Positions 13-14,224 of a DNA stretch of 64,000 nucleotides are shown here, one piece after another (the stretch's first letter is position 1; each line of letters starts with the position of its first letter). The notes below the pieces were generated by a model. The model was not told the DNA's origin. It saw only the letters and a list, made by a program, of their open reading frames with translations, and ran no database searches. The position numbers and the translations under genes were made by a program. Source of the DNA: Candidatus Puniceispirillum sp. (GTDB taxonomy: Bacteria > Pseudomonadota > Alphaproteobacteria > Puniceispirillales > Puniceispirillaceae); the NCBI GenBank assembly GCA_028383305.1, contig JAOEVD010000012.1, positions 1-64,000 of the forward strand. Reading direction: 5' to 3'.

Positions 13-609
13 TTGCGTTTTAGTGTGTTCTTAATAGCACTTCTTGCATATTTAACAGCATCAGTTCCAGCCATGTCATACGAAGAACCAGAATACTCTA
101 TCGTCAAAAAGACTGATGTTTATGAGGTTCGTCAATACAACAAGCGGACTGTTGCTGAAGTTCGCTATGGTGAAGAAGACAACGGATTCAGGCTGTTATT
201 TGATTATATATCAGGAGCAAATAAAGGCTCCAAAGAAGTTGAGATGACTATTCCAGTCACTCAATCCAAAGAAATTGATATGACTGTGCCAGTCACTCAA
301 TCCACGACTGATGGTAAAATGAGTATGAGGTTCTTTTTGCCCAAGCAGTACACAAAACAAAATGCACCAGAACCTGATGATGAAAGAGTTAGAATTATTA
401 ACCTGCCAGCGGAATATTTCGCTGTCATTTCGTACTCAGGTTTTGCATCTGACGGTAACTTTGAAGAGCATTACACGGAATTAGAGGCTGCATTGGATAA
501 AGACGGCATGGTCATCAAGGGCCCGCCAATCAAAGCCACCTATAATTCGCCTTTCACACTGCCTTTCCTTAGACGCAATGAGGCGATGTACCCATTAGAG
601 TGGAATTAG
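13..609 (+). CDS. SOUL-family heme-binding-like secreted protein
   Basis: The 198-residue product opens with a hydrophobic signal peptide (residues 1-21, ending near VPAMS). It continues with the SOUL/HBP fold signature: an EPEYSIVKK start, a YEVRQY strand and the repeated MTxPVTQS segment at residues 78-85 and 90-97, where SOUL proteins normally carry MTxPV motifs. SOUL proteins bind heme or other hydrophobic ligands; the bacterial ones are mostly periplasmic and of unknown role. The start used is a TTG, and the frame stays open to the first base of the window, so the true start may lie outside. It converges on the broken integrase, overlapping its 3' end by 15 bases, and sits outside the inner attachment repeat, so it may be cargo of the older, left-hand island. 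The family call is firm; the function and start are not. Confidence 0.8.
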   Translation: MRFSVFLIALLAYLTASVPAMSYEEPEYSIVKKTDVYEVRQYNKRTVAEVRYGEEDNGFRLLFDYISGANKGSKEVEMTIPVTQSKEIDMTVPVTQSTTDGKMSMRFFLPKQYTKQNAPEPDDERVRIINLPAEYFAVISYSGFASDGNFEEHYTELEAALDKDGMVIKGPPIKATYNSPFTLPFLRRNEAMYPLEWN

Positions 610-1761
610 CTTATCCATCCATTTAGCTTTGACATTCAACGGCTGTCCAAGACCATATCTCTGACCTACTCCAGTCGTTGTCCAGCCACCAATCGCATCA
701 ATGATGTCTGATGGACATTCAACAGCACGAAGCCTGTCCCGCATTGAGTGCCTCAATGAATGTATTACACAGCCCTCTGGCACTCTTGGCTTTAGCCACT
801 TGTTTATGGCTGCTGAAGCAGAGTTGGCATTGCTACTTGAGCCATGATTATATCTGGGGAATAAGAAATTGCTCCCAGATGCAGCCTCAATCCCCCTAGA
901 AGCCGCCCACAGGGCTTCTCCAACCAATGGAACATATCTTCGCTACCTTTGGTCTTAAGCCGTCTCCACGGATGTGGAGTGATATTGATATGGGGTGTTT
1001 CATCATTCAGATGAACATCTTTTACTGATAGCCCAACAGCTTCTCCAAGCCTCATGCCAGTGTCACTTAGTAAGGCTACAAGCCAGCGCATATCATTGTC
1101 CATGTGACGACACTCAGACTGAATGGACCTGATACATTCTGTTGGAATGGGAAGCCTTCTCTGCCTGTCCTCTTCGGGCATGAAGGTACGAGCAAAGGCA
1201 TTGCCGCAATCAAGCCCTTGCTCACTGATGGTTAGGTTGATGATTGACCTGATAGTTGAGAAATTGCGTTTAACTGATGCGATAGATAATCCTCTATCCA
1301 GCATGGCATCACGAAGGGCAGCTGCATCAGAAGATGAATAGCCATCTATGGGGTCTGTCACCCAGATGCTTGATAACAGCATCCACGTTCCGTGATGCAC
1401 CACGGATGAAGGTTTTATCCTTACCAACGCCCTTCAGCTTGATATAGGCATCTCTTGCTTCTGATAGGGTTAAGCCAGACGATAACTGACCATGACCGTT
1501 ACTATCATGCACCAAATGTGCTGCGGGAAGCGGCATTGCACTCAATCTTAACGACAACCAATAATCATGCAGCCGTTGCAGGATGGAATCACACATCCTC
1601 TTTGCACGACTAACTGACTTGGTTTTGAGGCAAATAACTATCCTGTCACGCTTATAATGCTGTCTGACATCGCATGGAACCTGCTTACTAAAATAGTAAA
1701 CACTACGTTTTTGATAGAGATATGAGGCACAAGATTTGTCTACCATATTGTCTACCCACAT
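595..1761 (-). pseudogene. Tyrosine site-specific integrase, two frameshifts
   Basis: Three consecutive minus-strand reading frames together give one full-length tyrosine recombinase. The N-terminal part (from MWVDNMVDK, about 1761-1355) has the SAxLYQKRSVYYF-like start of integrases with a DUF6538-type N-terminus. The middle (about 1350-930) carries the first catalytic Arg in TGMRLGEAVGL. The last part (about 930-595) has HSLRHSMRDRL and GGWTTTGVGQRYG with the nucleophile Tyr. The frame changes at a run of four C (minus strand) near 1350-1353, where dropping one C joins GDRP to IDGYSSSD. It changes again near 930, where one base is missing before VPLVGEALWAAS. Catalytic residues are otherwise intact, so the breakage looks recent, although sequencing error in short runs cannot be excluded. 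The gene starts about 60 bases from the tRNA-Leu fragment, as expected for the integrase of a neighbouring island. Confidence 0.85.
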
Positions 1762-1820
1762 TGACTGCTGCAAATAAAATACTTGCAAATCAATTGAGTA
1801 GTTCAATTGGAACACTAAAG

Positions 1821-1881
1821 ATGGTGCGGGCGGGGAGACTCGAACTCCCACGGCCTAGGGCCCACGGATTTTAAGTCCGTT
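1821..1881 (-). repeat. Left attachment site: 3' fragment of tRNA-Leu(TAA)
   Basis: The stretch matches 14048-14108 base for base except 1858 (g against a at 14085). It contains the 3' CCA, the 3' acceptor strand, the T arm, the variable arm and the anticodon arm up to the start of the anticodon stem. It lacks the D arm and the 5' acceptor strand (the sequence turns into a T run at 1881), so it cannot be a working tRNA. It is the duplicated attachment sequence left by integration into the tRNA gene. Confidence 0.93.
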
Positions 1882-1984
1882 TTTTTATGCATTATCTAGC
1901 TACCGTCAAATCATTTTATCATTGAAAACATTATATTTTAGGAAGACAATATTACTTCAACCTACTCTTGTTTGTCTTAAATAT

Positions 1985-2026
1985 AGGGACTTGAGAGGGA
2001 CGTGAATTCTCTTTAGAGGGACTTGA
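1985..2026 (+). repeat. Three agggacktga repeats, candidate integrase arm sites
   Basis: Copies are agggacttga at 1985-1994, agggacgtga at 1996-2005 and agggacttga at 2017-2026, between the left attachment site and the integrase start. Similar copies occur inside the right end at 13960-13980. P4- and lambda-type integrases bind short direct repeats of this size (arm sites) flanking the core. The position just before the integrase gene would also let the protein repress its own promoter. The assignment is by pattern and position only. Confidence 0.55.
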
Positions 2027-2031
2027 AGTAA

Positions 2032-3213
2032 ATGCCTGAAATAGAAAAGTTGACCCAAAGGGTCGCCTTTGACCTAGTGCAATCCGGTAAAGCTGGGAAA
2101 TGGGGTGAAAAGAACAATAAGCTCAAATTAAAGGTATATCCTTCGGGTGAGGCTTCGTGGGTGTTTAGGCACGCGGGCAGGGAGACGGTTATCGGGCAAT
2201 TTAGCTCTGTAGATTTAGCACACGCAAAACAGGAAGCGGCATCTATTGAGCTTAAATTGCGTGCGGGCGAGGATCCGATAACCAAAAGGCGACTGGCAAG
2301 GACACAGATCCCCGACGAGCATCTAACCCTTAGGGCTGGGTACAACTTGTTCTGCAAGTTAGAATTGCCCTTAAAAAGTCCAAGGTATCAGCAGGATTAC
2401 ATCCACGAATTTGAAAAATACATATTACCCAAATTTGGAAATAGGCCCTTTTTCGAAATCACCAGAGATGATGTTATTGCGTTTATTGATCCGCATCGGA
2501 TTAAGCGCCCATCCATCGCCAAACGCTTAATCGCGTATTTGTCTCGGCTCTACAACTGGCTAAGCAATCGCCCGGGATTTTCTAGTCACTACAATGATCG
2601 GTTTATAAATCCTGCCAGAAGAGTTGAGAAGCCGATCATAAAGGAGAGATCCGGCTACCTGTTGCCAGAGGAAATGCGACGGATATGGGACGCTTGCGAT
2701 CTTCTGCCTAACCCATACAGCGCAGCCTGTGTTCGTTTGTTGATAATTACGGGCAAAAGGACTGTTGAGGCTCGTGAGATGCGGTCAACGCACCTTGATT
2801 TCCAGAGTAAGGTGTGGACGATACCCAACCCCAAGTCAGGAGACCTTGAGGACAAGGTTCCACTTACCGAACGCGCTTTTGAAATCATATCTGAGATCAA
2901 CAAAAACAATGGGCCTTATGTTTTCAGTTCTAATGGTGGGTTTTCTCCAATCTACACTGACAATAAATTGAAATTGCGCTTGCAGGCTGCATCAGGTGTA
3001 ATTGGCAAACACTGCGGTGAGACGGGTTGGACGTTTCATGATTTTAGGCGCTCTATTAAATCCAGCCTGACAAACCTTGGCTGCCCGCTTTTTGTTTCTG
3101 AAGCGATTCTGGGCCACAAGAATAAGGGGCTTGAGAGGGTTTACAACCTAGCAGATTTGCTGGAACAAAAGCGGCATTGGCTGCTCAAGTGGGAAGAGCA
3201 AATTTTTACCTAG
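2032..3213 (+). CDS. P4-type tyrosine integrase
   Basis: The 393-residue protein catalyses site-specific recombination between the tRNA-Leu attachment sites. The N-terminus (about 1-85) is the DUF4102-like arm-binding domain found in P4 and CP4-57 integrases, with KWGEKNNKLKLKV and a short GQFSSVDLAHAK helix region. The core-binding domain covers about 100-200. The catalytic domain has Arg243 (in TGKRTVEARE), His336 and Arg339 (FHDFRR), His362 (LGHKNKG) and Tyr371 (RVYN), the full R-HxxR-H-Y set. The length is normal for the family. The gene starts 150 bases from the left attachment site and reads inward, as in most tRNA-linked islands. The first ATG follows the third arm-like repeat directly, hinting at autoregulation. 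It appears intact and active. Confidence 0.93.
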   Translation: MPEIEKLTQRVAFDLVQSGKAGKWGEKNNKLKLKVYPSGEASWVFRHAGRETVIGQFSSVDLAHAKQEAASIELKLRAGEDPITKRRLARTQIPDEHLTLRAGYNLFCKLELPLKSPRYQQDYIHEFEKYILPKFGNRPFFEITRDDVIAFIDPHRIKRPSIAKRLIAYLSRLYNWLSNRPGFSSHYNDRFINPARRVEKPIIKERSGYLLPEEMRRIWDACDLLPNPYSAACVRLLIITGKRTVEAREMRSTHLDFQSKVWTIPNPKSGDLEDKVPLTERAFEIISEINKNNGPYVFSSNGGFSPIYTDNKLKLRLQAASGVIGKHCGETGWTFHDFRRSIKSSLTNLGCPLFVSEAILGHKNKGLERVYNLADLLEQKRHWLLKWEEQIFT

Positions 3214-3274
3214 AAAAACCCAAGCCTGATTTGATACTAGTGATAAATAACTAGTAATAACAATGTTTTGGCTA

Positions 3275-3303
3275 GTGTCAGACTACTAATCTTTAGGTAT
3301 AAT
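3275..3303 (+). promoter_or_regulatory. Candidate promoter for alpA-primase operon
   Basis: An exact TATAAT lies at 3298-3303, 17 bases after a weak -35 (gtgtca, 3275-3280). The 125-base gap between integrase and alpA also holds two copies of the palindrome actagt (3236-3241, 3250-3255) and a further ctagt at 3272, possible operator half-sites. This is the only clear place for a promoter driving the replication module. It is called from base pattern alone. Confidence 0.4.
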
Positions 3304-3339
3304 AAAAGGCGTTAAGACACTGATACAGGGTTTGCGCCA

Positions 3340-3528
3340 ATGCAGGATATCTACTTTACACCAATTCAGGCGGCTGAGTTTTTAGGTGTTTCCAAATACA
3401 CGCTTCAGAACCAGAGAGTTCAGCGGGTTGGGCCACCATTCATCAAAATTCGAAATAGGCTGGTCCGCTACAAGAAAGCGGATTTGATCGCCTATCTTGA
3501 GAAAAATCGCGTTTTGACGGTCGGCTAA
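3340..3528 (+). CDS. AlpA-like excisionase / MerR-type HTH regulator
   Basis: This 62-residue protein is a single helix-turn-helix domain. It has FTPIQAAEFLGVSKYTLQNQR as recognition helices and the PPFIKIRNRLVRYKKADLIAYLEKN wing typical of HTH_17/AlpA proteins. Such proteins in P4-like and satellite elements act as excisionases or as activators of the integrase or replication genes. The gene is followed after one base by the primase-helicase start, so the two are almost certainly co-transcribed and translationally linked. Which of the two roles applies cannot be told from sequence; excision directionality factor is the more likely given the adjacent integrase. Confidence 0.82.
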   Translation: MQDIYFTPIQAAEFLGVSKYTLQNQRVQRVGPPFIKIRNRLVRYKKADLIAYLEKNRVLTVG

Positions 3529-3529
3529 A

Positions 3530-5362
3530 ATGACCGATTACGCTGCTCACATCGAAGAAGTCGCTACTCATTACTGGGGTAAGCCGAACCCGCGCCTATC
3601 CAATGGTACGGAATTACGCTGGGGAAACAACGGCAGTAAATCTGTTTGCCTACAAAAGGGTGTGTGGACGGATTTTGAGAGCGGTGAAACCGGCGGCCTC
3701 GTGGCCTTGGTAAAGGCAAACGAGCCAGCAACCATCAGCGGCAATCTTGCAGATATATTGGAGAGCAAATTTGGCATTGCCAAAAACGAGCAAGCCAAGG
3801 TTTGCTCGACCAAGCGCCAAACACTTGTTAGGCGCTACGACTATCGTGATGCGACCGGATCGCTTGTTTACCAAGTAGAGCGTTATGAAAACCCAAAGAC
3901 ATTTCGTCAGCGCCGCCCGGACGGCAAGGGTGGCTGGATTCCAAACATAAAAGACGTCCAGCCTGTCCTCTATAACCTCCCCGAACTATTGAACAGAACT
4001 GCCGAGCCTATTTACTTGGTTGAGGGCGAGAAAGATGCTGATGCTCTTATGGCAGAGGGCGTTCTTGCGACCACCAACAGCGGTGGAGCCGCCAAATGGG
4101 ACGATAGCCTCACAGAGTCCCTCAGAGGCCGCGAGGTCATCATCCTGCCCGACAATGACGAACCCGGGTTGATACGCGCCCAGCGGCTTCTCAAGGCATT
4201 AACAGGGGTCGCTGCGTCGGTTGAGGCAAAAGATCCATCGGTTTTCCCCGAAAAGGGCGATGTGAGTGATTTTCTGGCCGATAATCATCGTGTTGAGGAA
4301 CTGCATGATTTACCACAACTGCTCATAGATGACTCAGTTTACTCCACCCCTGTTTCCGGGGATGAGTGTTTTCATTTTTTGGGTGCTTCAGATCTGCGCA
4401 ATATGCCACCAATAGAGTGGCTCGTTGGTTGGGAAGAAGAGGGCTTTATTACTGCCCAAGGCCTATCGCTGATTTATGGCGCCCCGGCCACAGGTAAATC
4501 ATTTTTGGCTCTGGATATGGCACTCTCTATCGCAAACGGAGTGCGTTGGCAGGGCGTCCCAGTAAAGCAGGGCAAAGTTCTCTTCGTCGCTGGTGAGGGT
4601 GTAGCCGGTCTTGGAAAGCGTTTGAAGGCTTGGGAGGCGCACCACAAAATCCGTGATACGGGTAATTTTTGCGTGCTTCCAATAGCGGTGAATTTTCGAG
4701 AGCCTTCAGAAGTGGACAAACTAATCCGCTCGATCGAAGCAGCCGATGGTGAATGGGCCTGTGTAGTGATTGACACAGTAGCGCGGTCACTTTCAGGCGG
4801 TGATGAGAATAGCGCAACAGATGCTGGAGTTTGGATCGCCGTAGCTGATCGGGTTAGGCAGTCTCACGGTTGTGCGCTTATAGGGGTTCATCACAGTGGC
4901 AAAGACACCACTAGAGGAATGAGAGGGTCTAGCGCCTTTTTAGGCGGTGTAGATACATCCCTGCTGGTAACCAAGGAACGTGATAGCAGGTTTGTAAAAC
5001 TAAGTTGTGAGAAACAAAAAGATGCCGAATTAGCAGAAGACCAGTTTTTTGAAATGGTTCCGGTTGCGATGCTTCGCGACACTTCCGTTATTTTGAGAAA
5101 AGTTGATGCTGCCGTCGCGGCAGACAAAAAGAAGTCAGTGTCACTTACACCTCAGCAGAGCTTGGCACTTGAGGCGCTTCGATCACTAACCATCGATACG
5201 GAACGTCAGAAGCATCCGTCCGGAGATTGGGCTGAGGCACACAGGGTCAAAGTGCCTGACGAAAAGGCTAATCGACGCGGAGATCACAGAAATGCATTGA
5301 TAACTAAAGGTCTCGTCGCATCCGATCGTAATCTTGTTTGGTTAGTTCATGAAAACAGATAG
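3530..5362 (+). CDS. TOPRIM primase - RepA-type helicase fusion
   Basis: The 610-residue protein joins a primase module to a hexameric RepA-like ATPase. Residues about 1-60 look like a primase zinc/CHC-like N-terminal region (GVWTDFESGETGGLVALV) without obvious metal cysteines. A TOPRIM domain spans about 158-255, with Glu166 in YLVEGEKDADAL and DND at 208-210 (ILPDNDEPG). The helicase part starts near 300 and carries Walker A GAPATGKS at 317-324 and a Walker B-like VVIDTVAR near 410, as in AAA_25/RepA. Similar fusions replicate plasmids, phage satellites and integrative islands independently of host DnaB loading. The gene follows alpA by one base and precedes the palindromic repeats at 5371-5460. 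It is full length and uninterrupted. The replication role is well supported, the start of synthesis less so. Confidence 0.87.
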   Translation: MTDYAAHIEEVATHYWGKPNPRLSNGTELRWGNNGSKSVCLQKGVWTDFESGETGGLVALVKANEPATISGNLADILESKFGIAKNEQAKVCSTKRQTLVRRYDYRDATGSLVYQVERYENPKTFRQRRPDGKGGWIPNIKDVQPVLYNLPELLNRTAEPIYLVEGEKDADALMAEGVLATTNSGGAAKWDDSLTESLRGREVIILPDNDEPGLIRAQRLLKALTGVAASVEAKDPSVFPEKGDVSDFLADNHRVEELHDLPQLLIDDSVYSTPVSGDECFHFLGASDLRNMPPIEWLVGWEEEGFITAQGLSLIYGAPATGKSFLALDMALSIANGVRWQGVPVKQGKVLFVAGEGVAGLGKRLKAWEAHHKIRDTGNFCVLPIAVNFREPSEVDKLIRSIEAADGEWACVVIDTVARSLSGGDENSATDAGVWIAVADRVRQSHGCALIGVHHSGKDTTRGMRGSSAFLGGVDTSLLVTKERDSRFVKLSCEKQKDAELAEDQFFEMVPVAMLRDTSVILRKVDAAVAADKKKSVSLTPQQSLALEALRSLTIDTERQKHPSGDWAEAHRVKVPDEKANRRGDHRNALITKGLVASDRNLVWLVHENR

Positions 5363-5370
5363 TTACATAC

Positions 5371-5460
5371 AGATATCCGAAATACGATCGGATATCCGAT
5401 TGGATGCTTCCGTATATCCGTCCGATCCGATCTCTTTAGAGATCGGGCGGATATTCGGAT
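5371..5460. other. Palindromic repeat cluster, candidate island origin
   Basis: In 90 bases there are four versions of the palindrome cggatatccg: agatatccga (5371-5380), cggatatccg (5390-5399), cgtatatccg (5411-5420) and cggatattcg (5448-5457). A perfect 8-bp hairpin, ccgatctc-ttta-gagatcgg, lies at 5427-5446. The cluster sits between the primase-helicase and a winged-helix gene, the usual place of iteron origins in small replicons. It could instead be an operator array controlling the winged-helix gene. Confidence 0.55.
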
Positions 5461-5499
5461 CCACAAGGATGTGTAGTTTTTGTTTAGTGGAGCGCAATC

Positions 5500-5856
5500 A
5501 TGACTGACGCGCGTCGCTATTCAATTATTCCGATCCGCGCCGTGGGAATGATTACGCGCGGCAGGACTTGGCGAGTATTGGCGGCCCTTTGTGCGCACTG
5601 CTCACCAAGAGGCGTTTGTTACCCCAACCAGTCCACGCTGTCGGAGATGACAGGCATCGATCAAGCGAACGTTTCACGCGCTATTAGAGAGTTATATGAC
5701 CTTGGTTTGCTGAGATACCTGATGCCGATAGGCAAGAAACACCCCAAGGCATTCATGCGCGGCAATCGTTATCAGATTCTTTATGAGCCGCACGCACCTT
5801 TGCCGGATCCGCGAGAAATAGAGCTACCACCCGGTGCGAGAACAAACCGATGGTAA
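5500..5856 (+). CDS. Winged-helix DNA-binding protein, probable replication initiator or regulator
   Basis: The 118-residue protein has a clear HTH_36-type winged helix: RTWRVLAALCAHCSPRGVCYP, then QSTLSEMTGIDQANVSRAI (recognition helix) and RELYDLGLLRYL. This arrangement is shared by plasmid and phage replication initiators and their regulators. It directly follows the palindromic cluster at 5371-5460, which is a natural binding target for it. The C-terminal 30 residues are Pro-rich and probably flexible. It is small for a complete Rep protein, so an initiator accessory or copy-control repressor is equally possible. The fold is confident, the job inferred from context. Confidence 0.75.
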   Translation: MTDARRYSIIPIRAVGMITRGRTWRVLAALCAHCSPRGVCYPNQSTLSEMTGIDQANVSRAIRELYDLGLLRYLMPIGKKHPKAFMRGNRYQILYEPHAPLPDPREIELPPGARTNRW

Positions 5857-6203
5857 CAGCATCAAGAATGTGGGGGTCTGGGGGCTTCACACACATACTC
5901 CCAAACACGCGCTGCCTACGAACCAGCCAGCGCGAAGTCACACCGCCAGTCAGTCATGAGCAGCGGGCTGGTGGTGTGACACCTAACACAGATAACCAAT
6001 CTGTAGGTAGGCCTATGCTGTGCATTAGTTACAGCGGCACAGCTCCATTTGAGTCCCAGTTGAGTCCCTTTTATGAGGGTAGAATCAGCGCCCAAATCTG
6101 CTGCCGCCAGCGCCACAGAAAAGCACCCTTACGCCCCCGGGGGTACGCATCTCTATATGGGGAAGCCAATCAAAATTTTCGAGAAAAATGAAAGGACCCG
6201 AAA
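5857..6203. other. Gene-free stretch with a long inverted repeat
   Basis: I find no convincing gene in these 347 bases. A 13-bp inverted repeat (gtcacaccgccag 5937-5949, ctggtggtgtgac 5968-5980; one G-T pair) would form a strong hairpin with an 18-base loop. It is not followed by a T run on the plus strand, so it is a poor terminator. A 9-base direct repeat ttgagtccc occurs at 6049-6057 and 6060-6068. The next gene has a good ribosome site (aaaggacccgaaa) just before 6204. Confidence 0.5.
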
Positions 6204-6884
6204 ATGAACAATGTCAAAGAAACAGAGACCACCGTTTACCGACTTCAGGATTCGCTGGAGGCTTTGTTGAGGCGTTACAATGAGAAATCCCAAGCAGCAG
6301 CCGAAGACGGCCTCAGCGGCGCTGCAATCTCAAAACAAGCACGATGTTTGGCCGATATGAAGGCTGAGATCTCCGTAACCAGATCAGCATTAAATTTAGC
6401 CCAACAAAAATTGGCTGAAGCCGGCGAAGCTGCTAACGAGGCTGATGCAGTTGCATCGCGTGAAAGGATCTGTGAACTCACTGATGGCCTCATCGCGCAG
6501 GCAAAAAAGTTTGAGGCCTCCATTAAGAAGGCTGGCCGGGAGTATGGCCAGATACTTACAATATTGGAGGAGTGCCGAAACCTGTCTGAAACAGCCAAAG
6601 ACTGGCCACTGTTTGTCTTCAAACATCGGAAAATCACCCTCTGGGCTTACAACCATTTTATTAACCTGTCAGCTCTTCATCTGGGTCTGGCTCCAAGCCT
6701 CCACTTCACGCATTGGCCAAAGGCGGAGCTGGCAAAAGACGGTGCTGATCCGACGATCGCTTACAGTGACCTAATTTATGCAAAGAACCTTTGGCAAAAC
6801 CCAGAGCCAGCTGAAGAGGAACTCCCAGACGAGCCAATTGAATGGCGTGAGGCAACCCCCGAGGAGATCGATAATGTTGCGTGA
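6204..6884 (+). CDS. Hypothetical coiled-coil island protein
   Basis: I do not recognise the family. The 226-residue product is highly charged. Residues about 1-120 look like long amphipathic helices (LQDSLEALLRRYNEKSQ, LNLAQQKLAEAGEAANEADA), a probable coiled coil. A more globular region rich in aromatic residues follows (about 130-185, VFKHRKITLWAYNHFINLSALHLGL), then an acidic tail (PEPAEEELPDEPIEWREATPEE). No signal peptide or membrane helix is seen. The strong ribosome site aaagga lies about ten bases upstream. The gene overlaps the next one by 11 bases, so the two are coupled. A structural or DNA-associated role in the island is possible but unproven. Confidence 0.7.
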   Translation: MNNVKETETTVYRLQDSLEALLRRYNEKSQAAAEDGLSGAAISKQARCLADMKAEISVTRSALNLAQQKLAEAGEAANEADAVASRERICELTDGLIAQAKKFEASIKKAGREYGQILTILEECRNLSETAKDWPLFVFKHRKITLWAYNHFINLSALHLGLAPSLHFTHWPKAELAKDGADPTIAYSDLIYAKNLWQNPEPAEEELPDEPIEWREATPEEIDNVA

Positions 6885-7374
6885 GATTGCATCAGCTAGA
6901 CAGCCACTAAACGCTTTGATTGAGTTTGCGCTGCGTGAGAAAGGGGCAATGGTTAGCGCTGATGCGGTAAATCGATACGCTGATATGCTCTCTACGGCTC
7001 TAGCAGCAGATGAGGGCGATGACGTTTCAAACTTGCCTTGGGGTGACTTTGTAGTGTCGCTCGACGGTTCTTCAAAGTTTGATAGCGCTGTTTTTGCTTT
7101 GGGCCAAACGTTGAATGCATCTGAGGCTGAAATGCGGCAGTTAATAACTGTTGTAGACGGCGTTACAGCCATTATGGGTGGTGATGACCCTGATGATGTT
7201 GAGAATTATATCGAAGCAGCATTGGAACGTGACGAGGCCTTTAATTCAAATGAGGTAGAAGCCTTCAGTCATTTGGATGAAGAGAGCCAAGAATATGAGC
7301 AAGAGTACCTAGAGGCGCGGATTAGTGCCGCTGACGATGGTTCACCGTCTCATATTGAGGTTGGCGATGAGTGA
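6874..7374 (+). CDS. Hypothetical acidic island protein
   Basis: This is an unrecognised 166-residue acidic protein starting at the ATG inside the end of the preceding gene (overlap 11 bases). An earlier in-frame start at 6778 would give a 32-residue basic extension that only shadows the upstream gene, so I reject it. The sequence is soluble and mostly helical by eye, ending in a very acidic stretch (about residues 105-166, DDPDDVENYIEAALERD and later EESQEYEQEY). Acidic small proteins encoded with coiled-coil partners in mobile elements sometimes mimic DNA or inhibit host enzymes, but nothing in the sequence proves that here. Translational coupling suggests it works with the 6204-6884 product. 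Confidence 0.68.
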   Translation: MLREIASARQPLNALIEFALREKGAMVSADAVNRYADMLSTALAADEGDDVSNLPWGDFVVSLDGSSKFDSAVFALGQTLNASEAEMRQLITVVDGVTAIMGGDDPDDVENYIEAALERDEAFNSNEVEAFSHLDEESQEYEQEYLEARISAADDGSPSHIEVGDE

Positions 7375-7537
7375 AATTTCAACTTTATAGTATTTCCCTC
7401 ATTTGACAGCGTTTTGTAAATGAAACAGATAATGTTCTTTGTTTTTTATGTTGGTGTCATTACTTTTACATGGTGTCGTTGCTGTTAATGTCATCGATCT
7501 GTTGCGCCCATTATAAAAATTAGCTTTAGGAAACTGG

Positions 7538-8719
7538 ATGGAAAATTTTAGGCACAATTGGTTGGTGTTGGAGAATGCGATAAAACAACTCAAAAAACAC
7601 AGCCTCAACGTTAACTATTACATTGATGGAAATCATCTTAAGTTGTTTTTAGATAGCATGATTTTTTCTGCGAACAAGGGACATCAGGAAGTTTATCAAT
7701 TTAACGGACTAGGGAAATGTCCATCACTAGATCCCAATAAATCAGTTTATTCAGAATTAATTTTCAAGATTCACAGCCAATTCCTGACGAAAATAAAGCG
7801 TGAAATGTGTCACGAATTCCAGACTGTTTATGGAACAAATTTAGTTGACGAATGGGATTTGTTTCTGTCAATCAAGCCAACTCAGAGACTTAATAACCCA
7901 ACTGAGCTCTTTGAATCTGAACGCTCCCAAAAGTTTGGTTGGGACAAAAACTCCCCTGAATTTCTTGAAATGTCGCCATATTTTAACTTTTTTGTTGGTG
8001 GTGGTGTTGATTTCCAATTCCTTATTAAAACACTCAAGAAATATTGGCGTGATGAAGCAGATCCAAATGCTAGATCCAGAATTGAGCGATTTGTAGAAGA
8101 CTTTGAATCCAGAGACACTGGCGCACGGCCAAAAACAAATGAGTTTTTGAATCAGCAAAAATTTTCTTGGTTTAGAGAAGCCCTTGATGAATTTGACGCA
8201 AATTGGAAAAGTTTAGTCGCTGAGGTCAGCGAGGGACAAACGCGATTTAATATCAAGCCAAAGCAGCATTTTTTTATTGAGTTTCAAGAAAAAGCTGTTG
8301 ATACAAAACTGGTAATGAAGTGTATGGATGATTTGGCTAAAGCAAAAAATGATGACGTTTTTGTTTTCATTACAAACGATACAGATTTTCTTCCATTGTT
8401 CGAGCGTGTTGCAGAAACGCATCAATTAATTTGGTTAACAGGCGCTAAAAATAAATCAAAAGGCCTTAGTGGAGCTGTTGGCAGAGGTAAAATCTTCGAC
8501 TTGGTTGATTTCCTCTCCGGGGAAGGGTTGCACAAAAAAATACCCTCAACCAAATATTGGGACAACGAGGTACTGAAACAGAGTTGTCCGGATATTCAAG
8601 TGTTAAGGGATGATTATCTCGAACAAATGGCGTATGAGGCGTTTCAAAAGCAGCAACAAGAAATATATGAAGACTGGGAGCGAACGGCACGGCTTGAGTG
8701 GGAGAACGACAAATTTTGA
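7538..8719 (+). CDS. NYN (PIN-like) domain nuclease-like protein
   Basis: The 393-residue protein has the split signature of NYN/LabA nucleases. A first acidic strand is NYYIDGNHLK (Asp30), and the second half is VDTKLVMKCMDDLAKAKNDDVFVFITNDTDF, with Asp257-equivalent in VDTK and the TNDTDF motif (Asp281, Asp283) replacing the usual SGDSDF. NYN domains are metal-dependent RNases of the PIN-like superfamily. The two halves lie about 220 residues apart instead of roughly 100, so a large insertion (about 60-230, Lys/Glu/aromatic rich) is present. A charged helical C-terminal tail (about 345-393) follows. The stop overlaps the start of the deoxyribonucleotidase gene. The domain call is good; RNA or DNA target and biological role (defence, regulation) are unknown. 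The gene is AT-rich compared with the chromosome. Confidence 0.78.
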   Translation: MENFRHNWLVLENAIKQLKKHSLNVNYYIDGNHLKLFLDSMIFSANKGHQEVYQFNGLGKCPSLDPNKSVYSELIFKIHSQFLTKIKREMCHEFQTVYGTNLVDEWDLFLSIKPTQRLNNPTELFESERSQKFGWDKNSPEFLEMSPYFNFFVGGGVDFQFLIKTLKKYWRDEADPNARSRIERFVEDFESRDTGARPKTNEFLNQQKFSWFREALDEFDANWKSLVAEVSEGQTRFNIKPKQHFFIEFQEKAVDTKLVMKCMDDLAKAKNDDVFVFITNDTDFLPLFERVAETHQLIWLTGAKNKSKGLSGAVGRGKIFDLVDFLSGEGLHKKIPSTKYWDNEVLKQSCPDIQVLRDDYLEQMAYEAFQKQQQEIYEDWERTARLEWENDKF

Positions 8720-9153
8720 AAACTCTGTATATTGATATGGACAACGTTTTGGTGGACTTTCCCACGGGTATTGCGCGGATTAGTGAAAGCCAAAAGTTGG
8801 AATTTGAAGGGCGCTATGATGAGGTTCCCGGCATCTTTGCTTTGATGGATCCACTCGAGGGATCTATCGAAGCTTTTCATAATTTATCATCCAAATATGA
8901 TACCTACATATTATCCACTGCCCCGTGGGAAAATCATACGGCTTGGAGCGATAAATTAATATGGGTGAAAAGATATCTAGGGAGTCCAGCTTACAAGCGG
9001 TTGATTTTGTCTCATCACAAGAATTTGAATACTGGTGATTATCTTATTGATGACCGGTTGAAAAATGGCGCTGATCGATTTTCTGGAGAGCATATTCACT
9101 TCAAAACTGACAAATTTCCTGATTGGGCGTCAGTTTGCGATTACTTACTTTGA
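8716..9153 (+). CDS. HAD-family 5'(3')-deoxyribonucleotidase
   Basis: The product (about 145 residues from the TTG at 8716) starts MKTLYIDMDNVLVDF, the DxDxV motif I of NT5C-type deoxyribonucleotidases in the HAD superfamily. It has the family motif II-like LSTAPWENHTAWSDKLIWVKRYLG and the motif III/IV-like LILSHHKNLNTGDYLIDDRLKNGA. These enzymes remove the phosphate from deoxynucleoside monophosphates, trimming dNTP pools, and are common in phages and islands. The TTG start overlaps the stop of the NYN gene (ttga), giving tight coupling; a GTG at 8698 is an alternative start. The pairing of a nuclease with a nucleotide phosphatase is notable. Enzyme class is confident, exact substrate not. 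Confidence 0.83.
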   Translation: MKTLYIDMDNVLVDFPTGIARISESQKLEFEGRYDEVPGIFALMDPLEGSIEAFHNLSSKYDTYILSTAPWENHTAWSDKLIWVKRYLGSPAYKRLILSHHKNLNTGDYLIDDRLKNGADRFSGEHIHFKTDKFPDWASVCDYLL

Positions 9154-9184
9154 AGCTGTGCATTTCCTGCGCACAAAGCTAGAT

Positions 9185-9955
9185 TCACTCATTAGTGTTC
9201 TCAATAATATAATTTATAAACAGTTGTTTATTTCTGTAACTTTCATCTCCGCTTTTTTCTGGAAAAGCAGCCTCATCAAACATCTTTGTGGGAGCGAAAT
9301 TTAACCCCTCAAGCTCGTCACGGCAAACTCCAGAGAACCAAACTCTTTTAGACTTATTCCAACCAATCAGACAATGACGCTCAGCGTCTCTTTTGTAGTA
9401 GAAATAAAAATTTTCTCCATCGTCTAATATTTCCGAATGTCTTAGAATTTGACCATACTTTCCATCCAGCTCTCGCCTCCAAAGATTGTCCGCGAAGATT
9501 TTAGCTTTTGAAAATTTCTCGTCAGATATTTTTTCAGTGGCACTTTTTAGTTTTTCAACATTTAAGCCAACTTTTTTTGCTGTTTCTAATTCTTGTTCCG
9601 ACCAACACTCTGGGGCTGAATTTGTATCTCTGTTATCAGGGTTGATTTTGATTGGTTGATTGGGGTTTCCTACCGACGACAAACTCTCAGGTTCGTTTGA
9701 CGATAGCTTTTGAGCGGCAAGGCTGCACAGCAACCCTGGGACTAAAAAGATCCCCCAGAGCATAAATGCAAAATTACCAATTATTGGTATGTCACCTATT
9801 GGCCGAAGAAAATTTCCCCAAGTTTGAATGATGTCAGGTGTCCTGCTCCAAGATCCTGCGACAAATACCCAAGCTAGGATTATGCAAATAATTCCAATTC
9901 CGGCATAAAGTAGAAGTTTGGATAGTGTTGTGAGGGTGTTTGGGTTTTGGGTCAA
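9185..9955 (-). CDS. Hypothetical membrane protein, island envelope cluster
   Basis: The 256-residue product has two N-terminal membrane helices (about 12-35, LLLYAGIGIICIILAWVFVA, and 57-80, IIGNFAFMLWGIFLVPGLL). A Ser/Asn/Pro-rich linker follows, then a soluble C-terminal domain of about 150 residues with a YFYYKRDAERHCLIGWNKSKRVWFSGVC core. The family is not recognised. The only start after the in-frame stop is a TTG with a weak caggca ribosome site, so the N-terminus is tentative. It is the last gene of the minus-strand cluster, 90 bases after the 10046-11257 gene, and converges on the deoxyribonucleotidase gene with a 31-base gap. The soluble domain probably faces the cytoplasm given the two-helix hairpin. 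Confidence 0.65.
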   Translation of the reverse strand: MTQNPNTLTTLSKLLLYAGIGIICIILAWVFVAGSWSRTPDIIQTWGNFLRPIGDIPIIGNFAFMLWGIFLVPGLLCSLAAQKLSSNEPESLSSVGNPNQPIKINPDNRDTNSAPECWSEQELETAKKVGLNVEKLKSATEKISDEKFSKAKIFADNLWRRELDGKYGQILRHSEILDDGENFYFYYKRDAERHCLIGWNKSKRVWFSGVCRDELEGLNFAPTKMFDEAAFPEKSGDESYRNKQLFINYIIENTNE

Positions 9956-10045
9956 CTGTGCCTGCTATGGAAATACATTTTAGCGAACTCTCTATCTTTT
10001 TCTTTGTAAGCACTCATCAGTTTTCAATCAAATAAGAATTCCATC

Positions 10046-11257
10046 TTAATTGGCGGTGGCTGGGCTGCCCTTTCTGAGTAAGCCAAAGAAATATTTAGTA
10101 ACCCGAGACCAACTAACATCTATGCCCTTTGCTCTCATTAAGTTGACAGCAATAAGCACTGAAATTCCAAAAACCCATAAGCTTGGTCCAACTAAACTCA
10201 TTGAGATAATGACTAATGTGGAGGTTACACCGCCCGATCCAAGTGATTTGGCCCACGTTTTAACGCTAAGGTTTCCTTGCCGCCTTTTTTGAAAAGATTT
10301 TGCCAGCCCCACCAGCACAACAATTGCTCCAACAGGATTACCAGCATAGGCGGTGCTTATAGCTAATGCTCCTACGATTCTTGCAAAGCGCTCAGCGTCG
10401 TCACTATTCCAAGAAAACATTAGCGCAAGAGCCGGGATCGCAGATCCAACAACTTCAACCGTGTTATAGCTGAAAAAATCTGCAAAACGTTTCTCATCGA
10501 CGCCAATGGCCGCAAAAGCATCCCTAAATGCCTCAGCTTTTTCTTTCCCAAATTCAATAACCGGAAGGCCAACTACGGACGACATATCGCTCAACAGGGC
10601 TTCCAATGTGCCGTAGACTTCCTGAATGGTCGTGTCGTTTTCCATTGCCTCACGGCCACGCCTAAACGCCTCAGGCAAAGTATGTCCCTCAATTAAACGA
10701 TGCAATGCAGGCCTGATATGGTCTGCGCCTGACTTGAGGCCCTCTACAAACGATCCGTCTATCATTTTGGTATATTCATTGGACAGGGTGTTGAAAGTAT
10801 CTGCAGACCAACTTTCCAAAGATTTGGACACAGAACTTTCTGTCAGAAAATTCATCCAAACCATCGCATTCGCAGATAAATCGTCTTTCGATGGAAGCTT
10901 GGCTTGATAATGCCTGCGGAGTTTTGAGGCGAGTGAGAATTTTTCTGAAGTTTGCTCAGAGCCAATTAAGACTTCGTCAAGTGAGTCGATGGTTGTCTCT
11001 TTTTGTCCGTTGGTGTCACTGTCGTCTTTGTCATCAGGCACAGATGATGATTTCAGAATTTCTTCTGTAAGTTTCTCGGATTTATAACGGGAATATGCGA
11101 TTTCGTGTTGAGTTATCGGGGGGTGGCCATTCACAAAGACATCGATGAAGTGCTTTTCATTGGCAGAACTGGGTTTGACCTCACCAGATTCTAGTTTTTT
11201 GTAGCGCGTGAGGTGCTTGTTTAAGAGCCTCACATCCCACTTTTTTAAAGATGACAT
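10046..11257 (-). CDS. Membrane protein with DUF413-like N-terminus
   Basis: The start at 11257 is chosen because a perfect GGAGG lies 8 bases upstream (11266-11270); the GTG at 11266 would overlap that site. The product is about 403 residues. Residues about 1-55 (LLNKHLTRYKKLESGEVKPS, then HFIDVFVNGHPPITQHEIAY) resemble the short DUF413/MaoP-like module. A charged linker (55-120) and an alpha-helical middle follow. The C-terminal third has two or three hydrophobic segments (VEVVGSAIPALALMF, NPVGAIVVLVGLA, STLVIISMSLVGPSLWVFGI). It is unknown as a whole. It belongs to the minus-strand envelope cluster and directly follows the small membrane protein gene. The resemblance to DUF413 is by eye and should be treated as a hypothesis. 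Confidence 0.66.
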   Translation of the reverse strand: MSSLKKWDVRLLNKHLTRYKKLESGEVKPSSANEKHFIDVFVNGHPPITQHEIAYSRYKSEKLTEEILKSSSVPDDKDDSDTNGQKETTIDSLDEVLIGSEQTSEKFSLASKLRRHYQAKLPSKDDLSANAMVWMNFLTESSVSKSLESWSADTFNTLSNEYTKMIDGSFVEGLKSGADHIRPALHRLIEGHTLPEAFRRGREAMENDTTIQEVYGTLEALLSDMSSVVGLPVIEFGKEKAEAFRDAFAAIGVDEKRFADFFSYNTVEVVGSAIPALALMFSWNSDDAERFARIVGALAISTAYAGNPVGAIVVLVGLAKSFQKRRQGNLSVKTWAKSLGSGGVTSTLVIISMSLVGPSLWVFGISVLIAVNLMRAKGIDVSWSRVTKYFFGLLRKGSPATAN

Positions 11258-11262
11258 TTGGC

Positions 11263-11463
11263 TCACCTCCTGAATAGCCAGAGATAAGCTTTGCGTATGA
11301 ATGCGGCAAAGACAATTACAAAGATTATAGCTAGAGCCTTGACACCAACTACGGCTGCGGCAGGCGCACCAATCAATAGCGCTACTGCAATCAATGAAAC
11401 TATGAAAACAACGCCAATGGGTGTTTTCAAAACTTCAGCTTTTTCAATTAGCCACTTAGTCAT
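11263..11463 (-). CDS. Small two-helix membrane protein
   Basis: The 66-residue protein is mostly membrane-spanning: about 15-33 (PIGVVFIVSLIAVALLIGA) and 40-58 (VGVKALAIIFVIVFAAFI), with basic ends (FIRKAYLWLFRR). No catalytic motif is seen. Small hydrophobic proteins of this kind in islands can be holin-like, toxin-like or subunits of a membrane complex; sequence alone does not decide. It abuts the neighbouring genes without a gap (upstream stop at 11464-11466, its own stop inside the ribosome site of the next gene), so it is co-expressed with the 403-residue membrane protein. Confidence 0.62.
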   Translation of the reverse strand: MTKWLIEKAEVLKTPIGVVFIVSLIAVALLIGAPAAAVVGVKALAIIFVIVFAAFIRKAYLWLFRR

Positions 11464-11904
11464 TCAATATCTTGTCGTCCAATATTTCCACAGGGAAAGT
11501 CCACCATCATTATTGTGAGCAATGAATTTTGCCACTGTGTGGTAACTGCCACCGTTCATCGCCTTATCTTCGAAAATTACCTCAGTAAAATTGCCAAACA
11601 GTGGAGTGACATCAAAGCGATATAGCCAATTGTCGGCAGAAAGCACTTCAACTGAATTTTCAGCAAAAGTAATTTTTTGTCCGCTTGGGCAACAGGCCTC
11701 GAGGAAATCCTTCGGTGATTTATTCGCAAAATCGTATTTGCAACGCTGGCCTAAAGATGATCGTATTTCGCAGATCGGGAACAGGCGCAGTATATTCTTA
11801 TTATTAATTGAGGCGGTATCCGCAAAAGCCGACCAAGCCGCTACAAATAGTATCAGCGCAATCTCAAAAGCGCAGACTAGGAATAGGGTGGCTCGGCTGA
11901 CCAT
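11464..11904 (-). CDS. Secreted/anchored hypothetical protein
   Basis: The 146-residue product has a signal peptide or anchor at residues 5-29 (TLFLVCAFEIALILFVAAWSAFADT, plausible cleavage after AFA). A small extracytoplasmic domain with four Cys (ICEIRSSLGQRCKYDF, LEACCPSG) suggests disulfides. The C-terminal half is strand-rich (LYRFDVTPLFGNFTEVIFED). The family is not recognised. The ATG overlaps the stop of the preceding gene by one base (TAATG), showing an operon. The export signal fits the theme of this cluster, in which most products are membrane or envelope proteins. Confidence 0.65.
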   Translation of the reverse strand: MVSRATLFLVCAFEIALILFVAAWSAFADTASINNKNILRLFPICEIRSSLGQRCKYDFANKSPKDFLEACCPSGQKITFAENSVEVLSADNWLYRFDVTPLFGNFTEVIFEDKAMNGGSYHTVAKFIAHNNDGGLSLWKYWTTRY

Positions 11905-12311
11905 TAAAAAAGCTTCTTTGTTGGATCTAACTTTTGGCAGGTGGCTTTTACATCACCCTTCTCCATTCTTCCATCCTCAAGCGTGATTGAGAGGCTTATC
12001 TTATGCTGGCCTGTCAGGCGATCTATGGAAAAACTCTCCAAAACTCCGCCACTTTCCATTTCGGCAGGCTGCTCGAGATAAATTGTAGTGTCTGTCACGG
12101 CAAGACTTAACCCATTAAAAGTGTTGTTCACTATAGAGATTCGCTCCGAGAACGGGTCACTGTTAGCTGGTAACCAAATGGTCGCTTCAGGCATCTTAAC
12201 TTACGACTCAATTATGCCGTCGCAAATCAGTTCAAGGTTCAGATTTTCTGCCGCAACAGGATGACTAGACAGCGTGAGACATATGGCTGTTGGTAGGATG
12301 AGACGCCTCAT
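11904..12311 (-). pseudogene. Small secreted protein gene interrupted by an in-frame TAA
   Basis: Reading from an ATG at 12311 gives a textbook signal peptide of 36 codons (MRRLILPTAICLTLSSHPVAA, then ENLNLELICDG). It stops at TAA (12203-12201). Two codons later, in the same frame, the ATG at 12194 opens a 96-residue strand-rich domain ending KATCQKLDPTKKLF. The first ATG overlaps the upstream gene's stop (ATGA), whereas the second has only a weak ribosome site, so the ancestral gene surely started at 12311. The whole 135-codon product resembles its upstream neighbour in layout: signal peptide, Cys about 10 residues into the mature protein, and a final V-x-ATC. Either a nonsense mutation killed it, or a signal-less domain is made by reinitiation or readthrough. 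Confidence 0.72.
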
Positions 12312-12730
12312 TGGCTTGGACTGCAAGTGGCCTCAACACCACTAAAAAATGTACTGCCATCGATGAGTCCTGCCATAGCTGCAACAGCATTCAACTTGCC
12401 TATGGATACGGTTACGCCGATGTTTGCGCCATCAATATTTACAATGCCTGATCCAATTTCTGTCGTTTGTGCGCTGCTCCAAGTGAGTGCTTCATGAAAA
12501 ATTTTTTCTTCAACCAAATCAGACTCTGAACCGTCGGTATCAATAACAGATACACCGCCACTGTCTAAAAACTCATATATTGTCCAGCTTTCCTCGTTGG
12601 CTTCAAGAGGAGATGCTTCGCCGCCTACCATCACAACAGTTTGTTCATTCCAATCGCATTTGATCCGTTCTCCTGCCCAAACTGTAGTGTGTGACGCGAT
12701 TATCGTCGCCAGTGTGACTAAAATGCGCAT
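12308..12730 (-). CDS. Small secreted hypothetical protein
   Basis: The start at 12730 gives a clean signal peptide (MRILVTLATIIASHTTVWAGER, cleavage after VWA) and a strong ribosome site (ggagaaag) 6 bases upstream; the longer frame from 12787 adds a polar stretch before the signal and is rejected. The mature protein, about 120 residues, has Cys in IKCDWNEQTVVM and VEATCSPSQ at its ends, likely a disulfide closing a beta-barrel-like domain. The pattern (short signal, Cys near each end, alternating strands) resembles small periplasmic lipocalin-like unknowns of alphaproteobacteria, but no family can be named. It is coupled by ATGA overlap to the interrupted paralogue-like gene downstream. Confidence 0.68.
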   Translation of the reverse strand: MRILVTLATIIASHTTVWAGERIKCDWNEQTVVMVGGEASPLEANEESWTIYEFLDSGGVSVIDTDGSESDLVEEKIFHEALTWSSAQTTEIGSGIVNIDGANIGVTVSIGKLNAVAAMAGLIDGSTFFSGVEATCSPSQ

Positions 12731-12798
12731 TTTAAACTTTCTCCATTTGTGATCCGTATCAGTCACTAAAAATGTCAGAACTAACACGTTGTCAGTAG

Positions 12799-13884
12799 CT
12801 AAATTTTGTTGTCTTTAATTATAGTTTTTAATTGGCTTTGGAGTTCATGTCTGATTGATAGGATTTCGACAATAAATTCAGTTTTGTTTTGAGTGCTTCT
12901 GCATTTTGCAGTGTAACCGTTGTAATCTGGATCATCTTCCTCCATCGCACTTTTGGCAAAGCCGTCTGGTTCATACGAATACGCCAGAGTTTTTCTGTTT
13001 ATCCTGTTGGAGCCGTCGCTATATGTCTGTGTAAACTGAGACAAAGTGGCTTTCGAACTCCAGTGGCTTAAAATGGTATCATTGTCCTGATAAAATCGAA
13101 GGTGGTAAAAGTCTTGCCCCGTTTTCCAAAACCCAAAATATTTGCTTGATGCGTAATAGCTAAAATTCTTCGTCTCTGGCCATTTAACGTTGTCACGAAT
13201 ACACACCAAACCAGTTCCATCCCAAGTCAAGGGGGTTATTGTTTTTGTAATATCGGTCACTTTAAAATGTCGTGCGCTTATAACTGTGAAAGCCTCAGCC
13301 TTTTCTCTGGCTTTTGTGATCGCGTCGTCTGATAAAGCTCTGGCATATGCTTTTGCATACCCTTCTGAGACCATATCACCATTGATAAACGCCACTTGCC
13401 GCCAGACATAACCGTTAAATTTGTCATCAATTTTGCCATAGTACCAAGCCAATCCGACTTGTGCTTGAAGATGCCCGCTTTCAGCAACCTCAGTCCAATA
13501 TTTGATGCCTTTTTCGCGTGCTTTCTCCCTCAGGGGTTTTTCTGAGGCAAAATCCTTTTGGTCTCGTGCCTTTTCCTTAACTTGTTCGGAAAAGTTGCGG
13601 ATTGTCCCGAAAAATCCTCTGACATTTGAGTGACTTTCATTTGTTTTGGGAGATTTTCCTCCAGCGGGGGTGAAAGAAAAGGCAATCAAAGAATATCCTA
13701 AATTGTATTTGTCTTCGTCTGAGCGTGGTGAATTTTTGTAAGTCGCGATTGCTTGCTCAAGCTGATTGGTATCAACAAGTGCCAAATTGCCCAATTCAAG
13801 TGGATCAAGTTTTTTTGGTTCGTCACATGACACAAGTGCCAACGTTAACAGCAAAAACGCCCATTTTTTGTGTGATTTTTTCAC
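12799..13884 (-). CDS. Sel1-repeat-like lipoprotein
   Basis: The 361-residue product starts at a GTG and has a lipoprotein signal: KKWAFLLLTLALVSC with the lipobox LVSC, so the mature protein is acylated at Cys20. Asp at +2 would favour the inner membrane if the E. coli rule holds. Residues about 25-70 and 115-150 look like TPR/Sel1-type helical repeats (GIKYWTEVAESGHLQAQVGLAWYYG). The C-terminal half (about 210-361) is a strand-rich domain of unknown type with two Cys (LVCIRD, AKCRST). Sel1 repeats mediate protein contacts. It is the first gene of the minus-strand cluster, 164 bases from the right attachment site, so its promoter must lie in 13885-14048. No function can be assigned. Confidence 0.72.
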   Translation of the reverse strand: MKKSHKKWAFLLLTLALVSCDEPKKLDPLELGNLALVDTNQLEQAIATYKNSPRSDEDKYNLGYSLIAFSFTPAGGKSPKTNESHSNVRGFFGTIRNFSEQVKEKARDQKDFASEKPLREKAREKGIKYWTEVAESGHLQAQVGLAWYYGKIDDKFNGYVWRQVAFINGDMVSEGYAKAYARALSDDAITKAREKAEAFTVISARHFKVTDITKTITPLTWDGTGLVCIRDNVKWPETKNFSYYASSKYFGFWKTGQDFYHLRFYQDNDTILSHWSSKATLSQFTQTYSDGSNRINRKTLAYSYEPDGFAKSAMEEDDPDYNGYTAKCRSTQNKTEFIVEILSIRHELQSQLKTIIKDNKI

Positions 13885-13959
13885 TATCTACCAACTGCAT
13901 TTTGAACCAGTAGCACACGATGCCATAAAAAAAAGCAGTCGCAAAGAATTTAGAAATTC

Positions 13960-13980
13960 TGGGACGTGATAGGGACGTGT
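13960..13980 (+). repeat. Right-end copies of the arm-site-like repeat
   Basis: tgggacgtga (13960-13969) and agggacgtgt (13971-13980) match the repeats beside the integrase (1985-2026) at 9 of 10 positions or better. They lie 68 bases inside the right attachment site. Matching repeats at both inner ends are what arm-binding integrases use to bring the ends together. Confidence 0.52.
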
Positions 13981-14047
13981 CTTAAAGGAATAGATGGATT
14001 GGATACCAATTTAATTGGCAATATTGTTATAAACCATTGAAAAATAT

Positions 14048-14108
14048 ATGGTGCGGGCGGGGAGACTCGAACTCCCACGGCCTAAGGCCCACGGATTTTA
14101 AGTCCGTT
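14048..14108 (-). repeat. Right attachment site within tRNA-Leu
   Basis: This copy of the 61-bp repeat is continuous with an intact tRNA gene. The match to 1821-1881 ends at 14108, inside the anticodon stem, so the crossover lies somewhere in the 61 bases. The island lies on the 3' side of the tRNA, the usual arrangement that preserves the gene. Confidence 0.92.
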
Positions 14109-14133
14109 ATGTCTACCATTCCATCACGCCCGC
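14049..14133 (-). tRNA. tRNA-Leu (anticodon TAA)
   Basis: Read on the minus strand, the 85-nt gene has 5' acceptor GCGGGCG pairing with CGCCCGC before the discriminator A and an encoded CCA. The anticodon loop is CTTAAAA (anticodon TAA), flanked by the stem ACGGA/TCCGT. A long variable arm typical of class II tRNA-Leu follows, then the T loop GTTCGAGTC. All arms are intact. It is the integration target of the island on its 3' side. Confidence 0.95.
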
Positions 14134-14224
14134 ATGACTGGTCTGTCACAGGTGATAGCCCAGCTAATCCAATGATGCAAAAGGAAAGCGGGGTTTTCTA
14201 CTTAAAAAAATCAAGATGTCTGGT

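Follow-up and report, generated by a model that had tools for sequence, protein, structure and literature searches.

The window analysed here, a stretch of 64,000 nt from a contig of Candidatus Puniceispirillum sp., contains a short non-coding region with clustered repeats and a hairpin behind a primase-helicase gene, and the question is what this region does and which protein reads it. The original prediction saw in it the replication origin of an excised island, bound by the product of the next gene. We consider it likely, with a probability of about 0.8, that an excisable, satellite-like island of 12.2 kb has its replication origin in this region, and that the helicase binds the ATATCCG repeats via a winged helix. 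Judging from sequence and its comparison, the cluster is very probably the island's own replication start site.

The island and its replication genes

The 3' part of a tRNA-Leu gene is duplicated at 1822-1881 (attL, minus strand), forming a 60-bp direct repeat 98% identical to attR at 14049-14108 (minus strand), which lies in the intact tRNA-Leu(taa) gene (14049-14133, identified by ARAGORN) and forms its 3' part. Empty sites are observed in genomes of the same genus, where the flanks are joined at tRNA-Leu without the island; in the clearest of them (L184), the segment corresponding to 14048-16701 runs straight into 1881-614. Because of the tRNA-Leu copy and the empty sites, 1822-14108 can be regarded as an integrated 12.2-kb element, and the same two observations support its predicted excision. 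A broken second tyrosine integrase gene, in three overlapping frames with DUF6538 and Phage_integrase pieces (595-1851, minus strand), adjoins attL; its position next to the attachment site makes it probable that this tRNA-Leu had already been the target of an older element.

The genes at the left end follow the order integrase, AlpA-type gene, primase-helicase gene, repeats, all on the plus strand. They comprise the tyrosine integrase of the island (2032-3213; PF00589, 1.3e-15), an AlpA-type regulator or excisionase (HTH_17, assigned by family search; 3340-3528) and the primase-helicase (3530-5362), with a sigma-70-like promoter match, by consensus only, ahead of the alpA/primase-helicase operon (3275-3303, plus strand). 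The best full-length homologue of the primase-helicase in the order comes from a 2.75-Mb genome, where it also follows an integrase and an AlpA-like gene beside a tRNA gene. The other cargo consists of a NYN-domain protein, an NT5C-like phosphatase, and proteins without assigned function. The NYN-domain (nuclease-like) gene at 7538-8719 overlaps the NT5C-like phosphatase/nucleotidase gene at 8698-9153, and a role of this pair in defence or nucleotide metabolism is possible. The right half of the island (10046-13884) is occupied by leftward genes, several of them with predicted membrane stretches or signal-like starts as judged by eye, and the Pfam search of these genes yielded no match except a weak one to DUF413. 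No capsid, tail or terminase families were recognised in the island by family search against Pfam and PHROG. A second island is seen in the same genome (L170, G000:C20, 12039-16609), at tRNA-Val; its RepA-like helicase is shorter, and GGACA repeats and a CCCCTATAGGGG hairpin follow the gene.

The primase-helicase (610 aa) combines TOPRIM, a RecA-type AAA_25 helicase and a C-terminal winged helix, as assigned with Pfam, PHROG, AlphaFold and Foldseek. In Pfam, the AAA_25 match is strong (9.7e-37) and that to Toprim_2 weak (0.0045). The nearest solved folds in Foldseek are T7 gp4 (5ikn, the top match, with a large rmsd over both domains) and RSF1010 RepA (1g8y), the latter ranking first among solved helicase folds when the TM-score is normalised to the target (0.74 over 239 columns). 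The AlphaFold model, built on a 12-sequence alignment, has mean pLDDT of 80 and pTM of 0.45, so that the domain arrangement is uncertain; the winged helix itself (residues 541-605, encoded at 5150-5344, plus strand) is modelled with block pLDDT mostly 84-93 and is composed of helices 541-557, 564-574 and 580-592 and strands 596-599 and 602-605. The third helix (H3, residues 580-592, encoded at 5267-5305, plus strand) is the predicted recognition helix, in agreement with the covariation peak at residues 577-591 described below.

Repeats and hairpin behind the helicase gene

The putative origin region comprises 137 non-coding bases (5363-5499, plus strand) from the stop codon of the primase-helicase gene to the next start codon, and the predicted gene neighbours on both sides were found as described. 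Only four 10-mers in the 64-kb window, all located at 5370-5457, are within one mismatch of CGGATATCCG on either strand; this query is its own reverse complement. These are, all read on the plus strand, CAGATATCCG (5370-5379), CGGATATCCG itself (5389-5398), CGTATATCCG (5411-5420) and CGGATATTCG (5448-5457), referred to as repeats 1 to 4. Being 90-100% identical to the query, they bear out the four near-identical copies of the original prediction, which had called them palindromes, but only the copy at 5389-5398 is strictly palindromic. ATATCCG is a better statement of the shared unit than the 10-mer palindrome, and additional half-sites, ATCCG or CGGAT, are present between the repeats.

The hairpin, predicted as a perfect one of 8 bp, is present but larger: a perfect 9-bp stem with a TT loop, CCGATCTCT-TT-AGAGATCGG (that is, CCGATCTCTTTAGAGATCGG; 5427-5446, plus strand), nested in an imperfect inverted repeat of 51 nt (5409-5459, plus strand), whose 19-nt arms are 89% complementary and contain repeats 3 and 4. 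As single-stranded DNA, the region 5363-5499 folds with z = -5.6 compared to shuffles. The repeat-pair score of the 140 bp following the stop codon is reached by approximately 0.1% of 909 other windows and was matched by none of 300 dinucleotide shuffles. There is no clear AT-rich melting zone inside the repeats, the lowest GC content, about 0.32, being observed just upstream.

To place this arrangement among its relatives, homologues of the primase-helicase were collected from viral contigs, genomes and plasmids, and the bases after each helicase stop codon were inspected. Of 46 non-redundant loci, 38 show a repeat cluster at p < 0.01 within 140 bp downstream of the stop codon, and in 34 the score of these 140 bp exceeds that of every other window of the same locus. 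The remaining eight have no cluster by this test; two of them have one elsewhere, and one has a hairpin with few repeats. The displaced clusters lie about 0.6 kb downstream (L032) and 4.4 kb upstream (L164). An iteron-type origin beside the primase-helicase gene, as originally predicted, is thereby well supported by comparison with homologous loci.

The repeat words vary by lineage, and include GTCCG, TCACAC, TCGCA, GTCGC, CCCGAC, CCCAC, CGTAC, TGCGGA, CTACGA, ATCCG, and others. The centre of the cluster is usually a GC-rich (C-rich) stem with a CTA, TTA or TATA centre, and a simple motif describing this hairpin centre is present in 29 of 39 repeat-positive loci (the 38 significant ones and L047, classed by eye), compared to 3.3 expected from the same contigs; the hairpin of the window has the same shape but misses the exact centre motif used for the count. 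For example, the cultured Roseobacter phage CRP-406 (L175, PV211008.1) carries repeats (GGCTGGAAAT) and a hairpin (GGGAAACCCTAAGGGTTCCC), both unannotated, behind its primase/helicase gene, which makes it a convenient laboratory test case. Several plasmid records follow the same plan. The record CP018459.1 (L178), a 17-kb Klebsiella plasmid entry with TGCGGCA repeats after a RepA-like helicase gene, contains a capsid gene, and resembles a small phage or an excised satellite more than a plasmid.

Recognition of the repeat word

In 31 loci, similarity of repeat words was compared with similarity of protein segments by Mantel correlation. The correlation is 0.26 for the whole core and 0.18 for the rest of the winged helix, and reaches 0.47 for residues 575-592. 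In a sliding scan of 199 15-residue windows with the core similarity partialled out, the peak falls at residues 577-591, that is, on the predicted recognition helix (partial Mantel r = 0.41, family-wise p = 0.001). This indicates that the repeats are read by the C-terminal winged helix of the primase-helicase, as far as covariation of sequences can tell. As the protein of the window is only about 45-53% identical to most relatives, the match between its own word and helix is inferred from the family.

Physical linkage as the only cause of this covariation was considered and found insufficient: the signal peaks at helix 3 and not at the residues nearest to the repeats, and the downstream gene has no comparable signal (the repeat-word correlation of the downstream phage protein is 0.15, vs 0.39 for the helix). 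Moreover, linkage alone does not suffice because the agreement persists where the module is displaced by 4.4 kb, as in L164, whose recognition helix ARRDAR belongs to the TCACAC class and whose distant repeats read GTGTGA, fitting the helix. Separately, in L126 and L134 as compared to L159, the cores are 85% identical, the helices are PGNRRDARRAL and PSARRDARNAL, and the words TCACA and TCGCA, respectively, which provides a near-minimal pair for a recognition code.

Among 251 pairs of loci with cores at least 75% identical, both the winged helix and the repeats are replaced between conserved flanks in 72, which, given common ancestors of the pairs, is a number of pairs and not of independent events; at least two of the exchanges look independent. 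Replacement of only one of the two elements is seen in none of the 251 pairs. In the same set, winged-helix identity correlates with repeat identity at 0.98, and with downstream identity at 0.33. The borders of such an exchange are visible in L110 compared to L138, where DNA is mostly 70-98% identical through the core, falls to 37-58% between about -240 and +120 relative to the stop codon, and recovers to 73-91% in most bins beyond +120; the same pattern is observed for L147 and L155. These comparisons indicate that the winged helix and the repeats have probably been exchanged together, as one specificity cassette.

The gene following the repeats encodes a 118-aa winged-helix protein (HTH_36; 5500-5856, plus strand; PF13730, 7.9e-8; PHROG 270 and 678), which resembles lambda-O-like initiators of phage replication, and the original prediction had this protein bind the repeats as the initiator. 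The gene adjoins the repeats, its closest PHROGs are replication initiation proteins, and relatives, confined to a small number of islands within the same order, turn up alongside a RecA-type helicase (L166). A search of viral contigs with the protein yielded no confirmed relative, and its AlphaFold model is poor (mean pLDDT of 59). The assignment is at odds with phage homologues of the same architecture, which have another gene, or none, in this place, and with the fact that phage and island homologues lacking the gene keep the same arrangement; moreover, the repeat word covaries with the recognition helix in the primase-helicase's own C-terminal winged helix, and the downstream protein of phages does not follow the word to a comparable degree. 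We regard it as unlikely that this protein is the repeat binder; it may have an accessory part in initiation or loading. The repeats could also be operators, through which the helicase or another regulator controls downstream transcription, as a start codon follows them here and in most of the phage relatives, and iteron replicons often use the same sites for regulation and initiation. This explanation is weakened by islands without a following co-directional gene: in L046/L169, L058/L170 and L049/L173 the gene that comes next is either convergent or far away, yet the repeats and the hairpin are present. It would also be unusual for operators to surround a hairpin in many copies just where a helicase gene ends, and no promoter match was found within 5363-5499. 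An operator function in place of an origin seems improbable, while additional use of the same sites in regulation may accompany replication.

A packaging (pac) site for the terminase of a helper phage would be compatible with the small and large terminase genes situated 1.5-2.3 kb further on in some phages (L099). The repeats, though, sit at the helicase gene and their word tracks the helicase winged helix, and the same modules are found in tRNA islands and plasmid records, some with no terminase gene in the stretch read, which leaves this explanation very improbable. Hardly more credible is a transcription terminator or an RNA regulatory hairpin after the helicase gene: a strong stem does stand immediately 3' of the stop codon, but the hairpin at 5427-5446 has no T-run and gave no call as an intrinsic terminator, and the terminator was rejected on these grounds. 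Such a hairpin would also leave unexplained the many repeats outside the stem and the covariation with a DNA-binding helix.

Proposed initiation and known systems

Taken as an origin read by the primase-helicase, the region suggests the following order of events. The island would be induced and then excised in an integrase- and AlpA-dependent manner. Several copies of the 610-aa primase-helicase would bind the ATATCCG repeats via the recognition helix, as the strong covariation suggests, and the binding would load the helicase ring, of the RecA type, where its own gene ends. The central hairpin with its TA-containing centre would melt or extrude, and might, more speculatively, be a site where the TOPRIM domain starts a primer. 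The winged helix with its repeats would act as a single specificity cassette, swapped as a unit in evolution. The proposed binding and loading follow the published logic of SaPI Rep, Cch2, Gram-negative PICIs, and pRN1.

A wider suggestion, which we hold tentatively and at somewhat less than even odds, is that marine phages and their island parasites have a common replication chassis with interchangeable origin-specificity cassettes (winged helix and iterons), swapped against replicon interference between co-resident phages and satellites, and that the code relating the winged helix to the DNA word can be read from sequence. In practical terms, the sequence that follows the primase-helicase gene will probably reveal the origin in this large family of marine phages and islands, and the part of the protein reading the repeats comes down to a single helix. 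Simple cassette swaps make it possible to test replicon specificity and helper-satellite interference, and the loci form a natural data set for the winged-helix recognition code. No description of an origin in this primase-helicase family was found in the literature searched, although one may exist elsewhere.

Iterons behind a self-loading initiator helicase are of a kind already known, and what appears to be new is the RecA-type, gp4/RepA-like enzyme with a winged helix, the conserved hairpin, and the swapping of cassettes across marine phages and islands. As in T7 gp4, a TOPRIM primase (here with the weak Toprim_2 match) and a RecA-type helicase are joined in one chain. P4 alpha unites a TOPRIM primase, a helicase and a C-terminal winged helix in a single chain and binds short repeats; its helicase belongs to SF3, and the P4 repeats lie in two separate places. 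The one-chain primase, helicase and winged helix resemble P4 alpha with its ori/crr (comparison text PMC4234260), while the helicase here is of the AAA_25/RecA type and not SF3. In the crenarchaeal plasmid pRN1, an essential stem-loop lies directly downstream of the gene for ORF904, a fused primase-helicase with a C-terminal winged helix (PMC4234260), and a hairpin behind the gene for a fused primase-helicase with a predicted winged helix is also seen here, but ORF904 has an archaeo-eukaryotic primase and an SF3 helicase, and there are no iterons. The oriV of RSF1010 (IncQ) combines iterons with the priming hairpins ssiA and ssiB (PMC4234260); RepA has a similar helicase fold (1g8y), but RSF1010 uses three proteins, RepA, RepB' and RepC, where one fused protein here appears to bind, unwind and prime.

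The closest parallels in the placement of repeats are found in other mobile islands. SaPI Rep and SCCmec Cch2 bind, with their C-terminal domains, short iterons directly downstream of their own genes (PMC7581432), and clustered short repeats are likewise found directly downstream of the helicase gene here; reading of the repeats by the C-terminal part is suggested here by the predicted winged helix, the covariation and the cassette swaps. The helicases themselves differ, being of the DUF927 or D5/Primase_Cterm types in those islands (PMC7581432), compared to TOPRIM, RecA-type helicase and winged helix in one chain here. Gram-negative PICIs have the same order int - alpA - pri-rep - ori, as in EcCICFT073, with the iterons and the origin directly 3' of the primase/initiator gene, and the pri-ori of an E. 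coli PICI supports plasmid maintenance (PMC6092414). Their origins consist of two iteron sets flanking an AT-rich melting region, in place of which we observe a GC-rich hairpin with a TA-containing centre, and the RecA-type (gp4/RepA) helicase of the island sets it apart from PICIs as well. By sequence and by analogy with these systems, the best reading is that of a self-contained replicon, whose helicase would bind iterons beside its own gene.
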